Positions 19,675 through 29,140 of a DNA stretch of 30,454 nt are shown here, one piece after another. The position numbers and the translations under genes are program-made. This DNA comes from a virus, in IMG/VR virus record IMGVR_UViG_3300020156_000070, positions 1-30,454 of that record. One strand, given 5' to 3'. The number at the start of each line of letters is the position of its first letter. The first letter of the stretch is position 1. The notes under the pieces were generated by a model, which had not been told where the DNA came from, did no database searches, and was given only the letters and a program-made list of their open reading frames with translations.

Positions 19675-19899
19675 ATGAGCGAAAACGCCCCCCGAAACGC
19701 CGTCCTGAGCTTCGGTACTGAGCGCGGTAAGCGGATGACCGAAGAGGAAGCAGAGGCACTGCTCAAGAGCCAGGGATTCCACTTCATCCGGTCCCGTATC
19801 ATCACTCACCGTAACCGGCCAGCAGAAACGGTCATCGCCCAGTGGGAATCCGCTGATTACAGCCGGCGTGCCCGCCTGCGGGTGACCTATTCGATCTAG
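19675..19899 (+). CDS. Lone rightward accessory gene (moron-like), 74 aa
   Basis: This is the only rightward gene inside a 27-kb leftward operon. It has its own promoter (TTGACA at 19639) but no ribosome site, so it is probably leaderless. The protein is a mixed basic/acidic alpha-beta product: a helix (MTEEEAEALLKSQGFHFI), a loop and basic strands (RARLRVTYSI). I do not recognise a family. Its stop codon abuts the protease stop with no gap. It is flanked by direct repeats 300 bp apart, suggesting that it was inserted between the protease and capsid genes. Independent promoters and inverted orientation are classic for genes expressed from a prophage, for example in exclusion or host fitness. 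Confidence 0.7.
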   Translation: MSENAPRNAVLSFGTERGKRMTEEEAEALLKSQGFHFIRSRIITHRNRPAETVIAQWESADYSRRARLRVTYSI

Positions 19900-21534
19900 T
19901 CAGCCGGACAGACGCGCCAACGCAGCGAGCACGGCCTCATCGTCGATGTCGTCCGCGGGCGCGGGCTGTTCGGCGGACCGGACCGCGAGCGAGCGCTTCT
20001 CCCCCTCGGCCTTGGCGTAGAAGTAGTACTCGCCGCTGTCGAGCGGTGCGTCCACCATGCCGAGCAGGTAGGACAGCTCCCACAGGCTCGAGGCTGCGTT
20101 CTGGAAGAACCGGCGCGCGGCCACCACGTCGGCACCATCGAGCGACTCGGACAGGTCGGCAAGCTTGGTGTGCACGTCGGCGAGCACGGCCATCGGGTCG
20201 ACGTCGGTCTGTTCGCCGACCGCCCGGAACTCGAATGCCGCACCGGTGCGGGTTTCAGCGGGCGCCTTGCAGGCGTCGAGCGCGTCCGCGAGCGACAGCT
20301 TCCCGGTGGCGAAGCCGGTCAGCAGCTCCTGCGCGCGGGTCCCGGACAGCTCGGCGCCGCCGGGCTGCCGCGAGCGGATCGCGTTGACCGCGGTGCCCGG
20401 CACGCTGCCGTTGAGCACGACGGAGAATTCGTCGACCTCGGCCTCGGTGATCTGAGTGGTGTCGCGCAGTTCGGGGTCCGGGCGGGACTTGCCGCGCAGG
20501 AACGCGAAGCTGAACTCCTTCATCGTGCCGGAGCGGAGCTGCGCATACGCCTGCTTGGCGCGCGGCACGGCGTCGAAGTCGTCGAGTTCCACGTCGATGT
20601 CGAGCCCGTCCGCGCCATCGGTGTAGCTGACCACGCGGCCGATGGGGTCGTTCCAGTCGTGGCCCCACACCACCGGCGGCAGCTTGTCGCGCAGGCTGGC
20701 GCTGAACACACCGGGCGCCCACGATGTGCCGTAGCTGTCGCGCACCCCGTAGTTCAGTGCTCGCGCGGTGAAGCCGGGCGTCTTTCCCTCGCCGGCCTCG
20801 CGGAATTCGGTGATCTGCACGGGCATGGCCCGGGTCTCGATCTGCTTGCCCATGTGCTGCGCCTCTCGCGTCGCGGGGTCGATGTCATCGACCCGGTTGG
20901 TGGTGTTCCAGGGCTCGCCGAACGAGCACTTGCAGTTCGGGTGGACCTGCCCTGGGTAGCCGATGCGCGGGCGCACCAGCGCGTTGAAGTTACGGCCGTG
21001 CGCTTCCCGGCACCCGTGCTCGCACGCCCCCTGCTCGCCGTGCCAGCCGAACAGCACTTCACCGTCGTCGTCCGGATCGACGTCCTCGATCTCGGCGGCG
21101 AGCACCTCGGCCGCTGCCGCGCGCTGCTCCTGCGCGGCGATATGGGCGTCGAAGAGCTGGTCTTCCCGGTCGTGTGCCGCACGCATGGTGTCCGCGTCCC
21201 CGGTGGCGTTCGCCTCGGCGAGCCGGACCGTGGCGGTCACGAGATAGGCGGCTTGGTAGCCCGCGGCCGCCGTGCTGTCGTTAGCGCGCACCCGGTCCGC
21301 CGGCGTGTCCGCGTCCACCGCGGGCAGGAAGGTGCCGGCGGTGTTCTCGATCCAGTCGAACCAACCGCGTTCGGTGAAGACCGGTGCGACCGCGCCCGCC
21401 ACCAGCCCGGGGAGCTCGCCGATCAGGTCGACGATTACCGCGGCCGACTCACCTTCGAGCAGCGCGACGGCCACCGCGGCAATGACTTCCTCGGTGGCCT
21501 CATCCTCGACGGGCGGAGTGGCGGGCTCGGTCAT
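19900..21534 (-). CDS. MuF-like minor head protein fused to HK97-type prohead protease
   Basis: This 544-aa protein starts at ATG 21534 with the upstream stop just before it. The N-terminal 220 residues look like a MuF-type minor head protein: helices, then a Cys/His cluster with CEHGC (171, 175) and the family closing motif HPNCKC (198-203). From about residue 237 it is an S78-type prohead protease: strands, then GHD (H292), EFSFAF (S342) and DEF (E369) as the expected His-Ser-Glu active site. It should trim the capsid delta domain during maturation. A helical C-terminal tail of about 150 residues follows. Such fusions are known in actinophages. The stop codon touches the rightward accessory gene. 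Confidence 0.88.
   Translation of the reverse strand: MTEPATPPVEDEATEEVIAAVAVALLEGESAAVIVDLIGELPGLVAGAVAPVFTERGWFDWIENTAGTFLPAVDADTPADRVRANDSTAAAGYQAAYLVTATVRLAEANATGDADTMRAAHDREDQLFDAHIAAQEQRAAAAEVLAAEIEDVDPDDDGEVLFGWHGEQGACEHGCREAHGRNFNALVRPRIGYPGQVHPNCKCSFGEPWNTTNRVDDIDPATREAQHMGKQIETRAMPVQITEFREAGEGKTPGFTARALNYGVRDSYGTSWAPGVFSASLRDKLPPVVWGHDWNDPIGRVVSYTDGADGLDIDVELDDFDAVPRAKQAYAQLRSGTMKEFSFAFLRGKSRPDPELRDTTQITEAEVDEFSVVLNGSVPGTAVNAIRSRQPGGAELSGTRAQELLTGFATGKLSLADALDACKAPAETRTGAAFEFRAVGEQTDVDPMAVLADVHTKLADLSESLDGADVVAARRFFQNAASSLWELSYLLGMVDAPLDSGEYYFYAKAEGEKRSLAVRSAEQPAPADDIDDEAVLAALARLSG
19901..19923. repeat. Direct repeat, right flank of the 300-bp accessory cassette
   Basis: Partner of 19601-19623, 20/23 identical. 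This copy is the real 3' end of the MuF-protease gene (leftward ALARLSG-stop). The pair suggests an insertion or recombination event at the end of the protease gene that kept its C-terminus intact. Confidence 0.7.
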
Positions 21535-21536
21535 CG

Positions 21537-21758
21537 CTACCGTCCCGCGTCGACTGCCGTGCGCACGAACGCGTCCTTCGCCTCGAGCAGCTTGCGCAGT
21601 CCGACCGTCAGTTCCGGTCCGTCCGGCAGTGCGGCCACCATCTCGTACGCCAGTTCGTAGCACGGTGCGCTGACCCGCTGCAGGTGATCGGGCAGGTGGT
21701 CGAACTCGAAGAAGCGCAGCAGATGCTGCGTACCGGGGTGCCTGCCTTCGGCGCCCAT
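21537..21758 (-). CDS. Acb2/Tad1 hairpin-like small protein (candidate cyclic-nucleotide sponge)
   Basis: The 73-aa protein starts at ATG 21758, sharing a base with the upstream stop. Its pattern, an aromatic segment (LLRFFEFDHLPDHLQ) then two helices joined by a Pro-Asp/Gly turn (CYELAYEMVAALPDGPELTV, GLRKLLEAKDAFVRTAV), resembles phage proteins carrying the Acb2/Tad1 hairpin domain, in which LAxxI-x4-P-x2-RE-x4-ALxxLE-x2-V-x2-A recurs. Acb2 and Tad1 sequester cyclic nucleotides and block CBASS or Thoeris defence. The link here is by remembered sequence pattern only; a structural role is possible because the gene lies between portal and protease genes. Residues that bind nucleotide cannot be judged. 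Confidence 0.5.
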   Translation of the reverse strand: MGAEGRHPGTQHLLRFFEFDHLPDHLQRVSAPCYELAYEMVAALPDGPELTVGLRKLLEAKDAFVRTAVDAGR

Positions 21759-21949
21759 CAGGCGTCGTCCTCGAACCAGAAGTCAGCGACGTGCTCGAGG
21801 TTGACGTAGCGCTCCGGGCTGCCGCTCGACGCCGGGATGATCACGAACACTGGCCCGCCGTCCGCCGACTGCCACGTCTCGAGCCCGGTCAGGTCGGAAA
21901 CGCTCGGCTCGGCCACCGGGTCGCCGGTCTTCAGGGTCATACGCATCAT
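21758..21949 (-). CDS. Hypothetical 63-aa protein downstream of portal
   Basis: ATG 21949 has AGGGAG about 8 bases upstream, which favours it over the nearby ATG codons at 21946 and 21940. It lies 4 bases after the portal stop, and its own stop shares a base with the next ATG. The product has short strands (DGGPVFVIIPASS, YVNLEHVADFWFEDD) and looks like a single small beta domain with an acidic end. No Cys or membrane part; no family recognised. Confidence 0.65.
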   Translation of the reverse strand: MMRMTLKTGDPVAEPSVSDLTGLETWQSADGGPVFVIIPASSGSPERYVNLEHVADFWFEDDA

Positions 21950-21953
21950 GTGG

Positions 21954-23747
21954 CTAGCTCCCTAGTTGTGCGATTGCCTGGTCAGGTGTCAACGAGCCAT
22001 CGGCCAGGGCGAGCAGCGCCTGCTGCACGACCTCTGCGGGCACGCTGCCCACGTACCGGTCGGTGTCGGTCCACTCGTCGAGATCGAGGTTGAATCCGTC
22101 GTCGAGCTGTTCGAGCACGGCGGCCGTGATGTCCTCGCTGTACCGGTCGATCTCCATCGCGCCGAGCGCGCGCAACGCCGGGCCGAAGGTGGCCACCGCG
22201 CGGGCGCGCCAGTGGTCGGCGTCGAAAGCCGTACGTATGTCCTCCTGGGCACGCACCTGCGTGCGCCGGCCGCGACCGCCGGACAACCGCCGGTCCAGCT
22301 CACCGCGGATCTCGCCGCGCCAGCTCTCGATCTGCGAGCGCAGCACGCCGACAAGCGGATCGGCACGCCGGATCGGCACCACGTTGCTCGCGCTGGCCGG
22401 CTTCTGCGTAGGCTCGCCCCCGCCGCTGCCGGACTCGCCGGTCTTCGCGTCGTCGGTGGGCAGGTCGGCCTCCGGCTGCGGGTCGGCCGTCTCCGGCAGC
22501 GGTCCCAGCCCCACGTCTTCGCGCCACTCGTCCGCCAGCAGCAGCCCGGCGTTGACCAGGGCGACCACCGTGGCTGCGTCGCCGTAGCTGGACCGCGGCG
22601 CCAGGGCGGGCACGTCGCTGACGTCGAACCACCCGACGTCCTCGCCACCCCAGGCGGGGGCGAGCGCCAGGTTGATGTGGTCTTCCATCTCCCGCATATG
22701 CTGGCGGCAGGTCTCCCAGAAATTCTGGTCGTCCATCTGCATGTTGGTGAACTTCGAGCGCGTGCTGTCGCCGAGCTTGGACAGCGGCACGCCGAAGGCC
22801 ACGCACATGTCCTGGACCTTCGAGTCCCGGAGCACGGACATCTCCGCGTCCTTCTGCGCCCGGCCCAGCGTGATGACGTTCACCGGGTCCGGCACCGTGC
22901 CGGTCGTGCCCTCGCCGGCCTCGATCTCCCGCTCGGCGAACAGCGTCTTGCCGGCGTTGCGCGCCCCGCCGAAGCGGCCGCGGAACTGGTTGCGGAACGC
23001 CTTGCGTTCTTCGCGGTTCTCGAACGGTTCGTGGATGACCAGGTGTGCGGGGATGCCGCCGTTCTGCAGGAACGCCGCATCGAACTGGGCGATGAGCTGA
23101 GCCACGTTCACGTCGTGCGCGGCGAACTGCAACGGGCTCTCGGGCTGGCGGAAGTCGTGCATCGCCGGGCGCCAGCGGTAGAGCACCTGCTCGTTGGTGA
23201 ACTCCTGGTAGCCGCGCTCCCCCTTGGTGCCGTACTCGAAGCCGTCGAAGTAGTCCGGGCTGGTGCTGTTCGGGTTGGCCATCTTCGGCTTGAGGTGCTG
23301 GGCCATCAGCGGCCACAGGCCGACCACGCGTCCGGCGGCGTCGAACTCCTTCACCGCGGCGAACTTGCCCATGATCAGATAGCTCGCCACCCAGAAGCGC
23401 CAGAGCATGGCCGCGGACCACACCTTGTTGGGACCACCGGGTGCCGGGCCGAGCAGACGCGCCAGCGGGGCGGTGCTCCGGGCTTTCCGGCTGACCGCGT
23501 TGCCCGCCTGGAACGGCTGGCCGGCGATCGATGTGGCGATCTTGTCGATGCAGCGATAGGCGTACATCGTGCGCTGGTAGCCCCGCCGGATGAGCCCGGC
23601 CCCGTCCCAATCGGACTGGATCGGCTGACCGGGCGCGTAGTACTGGCTGGTGTACTGCGCCCCGGGGGGCGCCTGCGTGGAGCGCGGCAGCGGTGGGCGC
23701 GCGCGGAAGCCGGCCAGCGCGGCAGCGGCGTCAATCAGTCTTCCCAT
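21954..23747 (-). CDS. Portal protein (HK97 type)
   Basis: The 597-aa protein (ATG 23747, overlapping the preceding small gene by 17 bases) carries portal features: an early YAYRCIDKIATSIAGQPF helix, a WVASYLIMGKFAAVKEF strand set, then HLKPK and LYRWRP, the wing and stem region with NREERKAFRNQFRGRFG and a conserved VAFGVPLSKLGDS loop ahead of the crown. The last 170 residues are a longer, partly disordered and acidic tail with further helices. Twelve copies form the ring through which DNA is packaged and to which the connector binds. Confidence 0.92.
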   Translation of the reverse strand: MGRLIDAAAALAGFRARPPLPRSTQAPPGAQYTSQYYAPGQPIQSDWDGAGLIRRGYQRTMYAYRCIDKIATSIAGQPFQAGNAVSRKARSTAPLARLLGPAPGGPNKVWSAAMLWRFWVASYLIMGKFAAVKEFDAAGRVVGLWPLMAQHLKPKMANPNSTSPDYFDGFEYGTKGERGYQEFTNEQVLYRWRPAMHDFRQPESPLQFAAHDVNVAQLIAQFDAAFLQNGGIPAHLVIHEPFENREERKAFRNQFRGRFGGARNAGKTLFAEREIEAGEGTTGTVPDPVNVITLGRAQKDAEMSVLRDSKVQDMCVAFGVPLSKLGDSTRSKFTNMQMDDQNFWETCRQHMREMEDHINLALAPAWGGEDVGWFDVSDVPALAPRSSYGDAATVVALVNAGLLLADEWREDVGLGPLPETADPQPEADLPTDDAKTGESGSGGGEPTQKPASASNVVPIRRADPLVGVLRSQIESWRGEIRGELDRRLSGGRGRRTQVRAQEDIRTAFDADHWRARAVATFGPALRALGAMEIDRYSEDITAAVLEQLDDGFNLDLDEWTDTDRYVGSVPAEVVQQALLALADGSLTPDQAIAQLGS

Positions 23748-28706: not shown

Positions 28707-28776
28707 GCCTCCACCCTAGCTGATCGGCTGTCGATTGTCGTGTTTCGGTTTGGCTTCCTGCCGACTGCCTGCCAGC

Positions 28777-28812
28777 GCGTACGGCCCCCTCTCCCCCGGA
28801 GGGGCCGTACGC
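28777..28812. terminator. GC-rich hairpin upstream of the leftward operon
   Basis: GCGTACGGCCCC (28777-28788) and GGGGCCGTACGC (28801-28812) form a perfect 12-bp stem with a 12-base loop. No U-tract follows on either strand, so it could be a T-less actinobacterial terminator or a structural or operator element. It lies between the repeat array and the first leftward gene. Confidence 0.5.
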
Positions 28813-28826
28813 GCGCGCGAGGGCGA

Positions 28827-29097
28827 GGTTGTCCAGTGGTTGTCAATGATCTTGTTAGGTTGTCCGTCGCAGGTCAGGGCGGTTGTCCGAAAAACAGGCC
28901 TCTGGTTGTCCGGGAGGTTGTCAATGATCTTGTTAGGTTGTCCGTGCCTGGTCAGGGCGTTTCCGATATGTCCGTTTTGTCCGGTACAACCCCCCTGAAG
29001 ATCCACATCGGTTGTCTGAGCTGTGACCAGCAGAAACAGGGTTGTCCCAAGATCTTTTACTGGCCAGTAGACAACCAGATCAAGATCCCGGACAACC
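28827..29097. repeat. GGTTGTCC iteron-like array (candidate origin or operator region)
   Basis: Copies of GGTTGTC[CAT] occur in the same direction at 28827, 28838, 28858, 28881, 28904, 28916, 28936, 29010 and 29040, and inverted copies (GACAACC) at 29070 and 29091. Spacings in the first seven are 11, 20, 23, 23, 12 and 20 bp, so the sites fall close to one face of the helix. A 77-78-bp unit (from 28827) is repeated in tandem (from 28904), including an AT-rich ATGATCTTGTTA between sites. The stretch is clearly less GC-rich than the genes around it and has no supported ORF. It lies next to a replicative helicase gene. Confidence 0.75.
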
Positions 29098-29140
29098 GGC
29101 TGCCGACGCAGGCCCCTCTGCATGACCATGCACTCTCGGT

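Follow-up and report, generated by a model that had tools for sequence, protein, structure and literature searches.

A candidate nucleotide sponge in a divergent, unannotated branch of the Acb2/Tad1 hairpin superfamily

A 73-residue gene in a head operon

The window analysed here is an entire virus record of 30,454 bases, in which Pfam matches to terminase (PF03237), portal (PF04860), prohead protease (PF04586), and capsid (PF05065) families surround a gene for a protein of 73 residues at 21537-21758 on the minus strand. According to these matches and the coordinates, the order on that strand is portal, a 63-residue gene, the 73-residue gene, and protease. The portal gene (21954-23747; PF04860, 2.5e-36) and the 63-residue gene (21758-21949), for which Pfam and PHROG searches returned no family match, lie upstream, and the gene for the head maturation (prohead S78) protease of 544 residues (19900-21534; PF04586, 6.1e-12; phrog_80, 4.6e-28) lies downstream. 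The start of the 73-residue gene overlaps the stop of the 63-residue gene directly before it in a TGATG, and its own stop codon (21537-21539) is followed after a 2-nt gap by the ATG of the protease gene (21532-21534), which places it in a tightly packed operon. The first-pass annotation, which had located this frame correctly, also described the protein (MGAEGRHPGTQHLLRFFEFDHLPDHLQRVSAPCYELAYEMVAALPDGPELTVGLRKLLEAKDAFVRTAVDAGR) as having an aromatic start, an LAxxM helix, a PDGPE turn, and an RKLLEAKDAFVR helix, and all of these are present, with the aromatic start reading RFFEF.

The gene is real rather than a chance open frame. Its GC content of 0.78, 0.42, and 0.84 at codon positions 1, 2, and 3 is the coding pattern of the window (68% GC). 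Furthermore, its match to phrog_5120 (E = 3.5e-31, residues 1-71, that is, family membership over the whole protein) and the relatives found by tblastn in 362 of 50,697 phage records put the frame far beyond chance. The portal protein of the window has distant relatives only, mostly in Gordonia phages, and a search for close relatives of the phage that would allow gene-present and gene-absent genomes to be compared at the same site found none. Two other features of the window were recorded. On the plus strand, a frame of 74 residues (19675-19899) separates the protease and capsid genes, which belong to the head operon on the minus strand; it matches phrog_38040 (4.8e-5, function unknown) and is a candidate for an opposite-strand insertion. 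In addition, a minus-strand frame at 28716-29129 contains the repeated peptide GQPNKIIDN, which points to a short direct DNA repeat.

Distribution, genomic setting, and predicted fold of the family

Besides phrog_5120, the protein matched phrog_1761 (5.4e-28, residues 7-71), whose longer model of 148 positions carries the domain at its C-terminus. Both families are annotated as function unknown, the annotated members that we examined bear names such as 'hypothetical protein', and a literature search found no papers on phrog_5120, phrog_1761, or phrog_1454. Phages bearing relatives infect Mycobacterium, Gordonia, Rhodococcus, Brevibacterium, Vibrio, Erwinia, Acinetobacter, Alteromonas, and roseobacter hosts. 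Among viral contigs, a single back-translated pattern led to at least 581 confirmed places, and close relatives occur in three actinobacterial genomes (Nonomuraea, Kibdelosporangium, and Actinocrispum). In some of the Brevibacterium phages AGM3, AGM9/10/14, and 4C, features labelled 'repeated sequence in phage genome' overlap with the relative, and a longer tblastn match there indicates that its coding length may vary among sister phages. Across 26 diverse members, F17, H21, L22, L26, S30, E49, R55, K56, L57, E59, A60, K61, D62, V65, and R66 are invariant or nearly so, and aromatic residues are kept at position 17 and, in most members, at position 19. The perfect conservation of LRKLLEAK in our larger alignment is partly due to the use of this motif as the search seed; the motif is also conserved, free of that bias, in the alignment built from phage records through tblastn.

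The relatives are found in very different genomic surroundings. Those of Ab105-3phi, 1.118.A, and DelRio lie between head genes, those of Gustav and NS-I between or beside minor tail genes, and that of AGM3 after the holin gene. In Acinetobacter T4-like phages the relative is near topoisomerase and rIIA or RNA ligase genes, the relative in Sting adjoins early genes for DNA-binding and methyltransferase proteins, and those of BigNuz, Evaa, AlanGrant, and Reynauld are in right-arm or early regions. Some annotated relatives lie near repressor or capsid genes. The 73 downstream neighbours matched 86 different PHROGs with no dominant partner, the commonest being head genes (portal in 7 and major head protein in 3 of the 73). 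A conserved place in the head module was thus not found among relatives, which are spread over head, tail, lysis, and replication regions, and the family behaves as accessory genes do. Given that position and neighbours vary between phages, the location of the 73-residue gene in the head operon is incidental, and its position between portal and protease in this phage is one case among several.

The domain also occurs in fusions. In two viral contigs (L157:2992-4863 and L184:2992-4869) it is fused in frame as the first 70 residues of a prohead protease-capsid polyprotein of 624 and 626 residues, respectively, the domain search having been made on the former polyprotein; in this arrangement, a sponge-like domain would be synthesised together with the capsid precursor and might then be cleaved off it. 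In gp28 of Erwinia phage SNUABM_17 (L118:3731-4183), a Walker-A-like N-terminus (GDVGSGKS) precedes the domain, and gp25 of Gordonia phage Sting (L035:5713-6219) has another N-terminal region ahead of it. An N-terminal fusion partner common to this family and Acb2/Tad1 was sought and the idea dropped, as most long 'extensions' were mere open frames.

The AlphaFold model of the protein, built with 62 sequences, reached a pLDDT of 96 and a pTM of 0.83, and its fold is confidently predicted to be one short helix followed by two long antiparallel helices. The short N-terminal helix (residues 8-17; 21708-21737) bears the aromatic RFF with the invariant F17. The first long helix (residues 24-43; 21630-21689) is followed by a four-residue turn, LPDG (residues 44-47; 21618-21629), then P48-E49, and the second long helix (residues 48-72; 21543-21617) contains the near-invariant motif LRKLLEAKDxxVR. 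On this second helix, R55, E59, D62, and R66 are spaced at i, i+4, i+7, and i+11 and would lie along one polar face, flanked by K56 and K61. Such a face is a sensible place for contact with a ligand or another subunit. The equivalent face in Acb2/Tad1 has T and E, and this difference may point to a different or altered ligand.

Relation to Acb2 and Tad1

The hairpin domain of Acb2 (anti-CBASS 2; Pseudomonas phage p26/gp24 and T4 Vs.4) corresponds to PF24729 (Acb2_Tad1_hairpin) and phrog_1454. Using a reference alignment of approximately 80 hairpins from viral contigs, hhalign related the 73-residue family to Acb2/Tad1 alignments at 91%, 88%, and 93%, and the 73-residue protein alone at 84.5%. 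The confident part covers residues 23-60 (38 columns, 37% identity), and the C-terminal part was not confidently aligned. After 200 column shuffles, the score was at most 18.8 and the value 12%, compared with 35 and 91% for the real alignment. As a further control, 700 other ORFs of the same loci were compared; 699 unrelated ORFs, selected without regard to helicity, reached at most 16%, and the remaining one, at 99.5%, is a true Acb2, namely gp101 of Mycobacterium phage Xandras. Two papers have announced Acb2 in actinophages, one for Xandras and BigBubba and one for Statler, and Xandras gp101 has been assigned a CBASS-antagonising role on the basis of similarity (PMC11953737). It is of the canonical Acb2 type, unlike the family studied here. 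Its matches to phrog_1454 (1.3e-29) and PF24729 (5e-16) identify phrog_1454 as the Acb2/Tad1 family. In PHROGs, phrog_1454 was the first family beyond its own two that the 73-residue protein matched (E = 0.057), and 17 of the 26 members matched it, the best at 3.9e-6. Moreover, a six-frame search of 47 whole Acb2/Tad1-bearing records with the family profile gave 11 matches, all 11 on the Acb2/Tad1 gene.

On the other hand, the 73-residue protein had no match to PF24729, for which the curated cut-off is 27 bits, and only 2 of the 26 members matched this model, the best (E = 0.011, 16.4 bits) under that cut-off. Searches with the single protein against Pfam, NCBIfam, PADLOC, and PDB sequences returned nothing significant, and the family profile found nothing convincing among PDB sequences; weak matches to unrelated Pfam families, such as Occludin_ELL, were also seen. 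We considered mutual exclusion with canonical Acb2/Tad1 (none of 60 family records over the cut-off, and none of 47 Acb2/Tad1 records with a separate family member) and rejected it, since both families are rare and the counts are uninformative. In one family record (L153), another frame, a long way from the family gene, weakly resembles PF24729 (G034:C1:8465-8623, minus strand; 20.7 bits, E = 2.4e-5). Taken over its profile similarity to the superfamily, which goes beyond the controls, a remote homology between the 73-residue family and the Acb2/Tad1 hairpin is supported.

The predicted structures point the same way. A control AlphaFold model of an Acb2/Tad1 hairpin has helices at residues 14-35 and 40-62, and the four-residue turn lies in matching register in both models, PDGPE in the 73-residue protein and PDSRE, in the form (C)PDS-RE, in Acb2/Tad1. 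The Acb2 protomer consists of one short and two long antiparallel helices (PMC12043709), and the model of our protein, with its short N-terminal helix and antiparallel hairpin with a matching turn, has the predicted fold of the superfamily; it did not show the unrelated fold that the first-pass annotation had named as counting against its claim. The Foldseek comparison with Acb2 and Tad1 that it had proposed gave a divided answer. Among viral models, the 73-residue query found its own family first and then Acb2/Tad1 hairpin proteins (ranks 7 and 8, probability 0.99 and 0.98), and, reciprocally, the Acb2/Tad1 query found canonical members and then members of the 73-residue family (A0A6G6XYP8, 0.99; A0A023NHU2, 0.96). 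Nevertheless, the main structural evidence against the relation is that Foldseek, run against the PDB with E values up to 10, returned only noise, with neither Acb2 nor Tad1 among the matched chains.

The likeness to Acb2 includes size, helix arrangement, turn register, and the pattern LxxxLPxxxExxxxLxKLxEA. The 73-residue protein differs in being without the SRE-SLALT-KLEE-MWAN signature and in having invariant H21, R55, K61, D62, and R66 instead; of the Acb2 motif SRExSLALTKLEEAxMWANA, only E49, L54, K56, L57, E59, and A60 have corresponding residues. Y11 and K26 are residues of the cyclic-dinucleotide pocket of Acb2, K26 being its ligand-binding lysine. The position of K26 appears to correspond to the near-invariant S30, and an aromatic residue is present at position 19 in most members, in a region where the alignment is weak. 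With Tad1 (Thoeris anti-defence 1), the protein has in common the class of helical hairpin, which is C-terminal in Tad1. However, Tad1 has about 125-140 residues with an N-terminal beta-sheet domain, and the 73-residue protein is all-helical in the model. As this beta domain is absent, nothing in particular points to Thoeris, and the 'anti-Thoeris' part of the earlier label found no specific support. Judged by sequence, the protein falls outside Acb2 and Tad1 proper and represents a divergent sister branch within the Acb2/Tad1-hairpin superfamily, given that it stays below the Pfam cut-off and that its invariant H21, R55, K56, K61, D62, and R66 are largely the family's own. Because these charged residues are largely unlike those of Acb2/Tad1, the ligand, and even the function, may differ.

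Candidate function and alternatives

We consider it likely that the 73-residue protein, as a divergent member of the Acb2/Tad1-hairpin superfamily, is encoded by an accessory anti-defence gene and sequesters a host nucleotide signal, and the gene probably helps the phage to escape host defence. Acb2 forms a hexamer and binds cyclic di- and trinucleotides in its pockets (PMC12043709). By analogy, the 73-residue protein would be made during infection, its helical hairpin would assemble into an oligomer as in Acb2, and this oligomer would sequester a host nucleotide alarm signal, most likely the cyclic di- or trinucleotides of CBASS. With the signal bound, the defence effector would not be activated. 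A bolder proposal, which we hold only tentatively and as a whole, is that the family is a large, unannotated sponge branch whose own invariant charged residues form a pocket for a signal outside the targets of Acb2 and Tad1. Candidates for this signal would be a further product of CBASS, a signal of type III CRISPR or of Pycsar, and one so far undescribed. The branch would range over phages of Actinobacteria, Vibrio, Erwinia, Acinetobacter, and marine alphaproteobacteria, being borne by a capsid polyprotein in some of them.

A less likely alternative is that the hairpin is homologous to that of Acb2/Tad1 and now serves a different purpose; it might, for instance, act as an inhibitor or adaptor that binds a protein of the host or of the phage instead of a nucleotide. 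This would agree with the difference between its most conserved residues (H21, R55, K61, D62, and R66) and those invariant in the Acb2/Tad1 hairpin, and with the occurrence of the domain behind other N-terminal regions, as in Sting gp25 and the Walker-A-like SNUABM_17 gp28. Nevertheless, the charged residues hardly vary among phages of Actinobacteria, Vibrio, Erwinia, and Acinetobacter, a pattern that would suit a small, conserved ligand better than a protein partner under rapid evolution, and the aromatics at positions 17 and 19 are kept. We regard as improbable a role as an accessory protein of head assembly, either scaffold-like or comparable to a delta domain at the N-terminus of the protease-capsid unit. 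The position between portal and protease, the polyprotein fusions, and the head genes among the commonest downstream neighbours are what such a role would predict, but most annotated relatives lie elsewhere (Gustav, NS-I, AGM3, the Acinetobacter T4-like phages, BigNuz, Evaa, Reynauld, and AlanGrant), in carriers as unlike as T4-like, N4-like, jumbo, and lambdoid-size siphophages. Small helical proteins do match many folds weakly, and the noise in the PDB fold search and matches such as Occludin_ELL are of that kind, but a chance likeness of helical hairpins is very improbable in view of the shuffle and real-ORF controls (the ORFs again taken irrespective of helicity), the phrog_1454 matches, the specificity of the whole-record search, and the identical turn register.

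Sequestration of a nucleotide signal thus stays our preferred reading. The initial assignment to an Acb2/Tad1-type hairpin holds for fold and remote homology, as judged from hhalign, PHROG, and the viral models, and does not hold for Acb2 or Tad1 proper; the nucleotide-sponge function proposed with it is a putative one, put forward here by analogy, so that the first-pass interpretation taken as a whole is partly supported. The fitting name is accordingly a candidate sponge in a divergent, unannotated Acb2/Tad1-hairpin branch; to call it an anti-CBASS or anti-Thoeris protein would claim too much. If the sponge reading is true, the distinct invariant residues make the ligand directly testable with the 73-residue protein, and an unrecognised counter-defence gene would be present in hundreds of phages, among them model mycobacteriophages and Gordonia phages.
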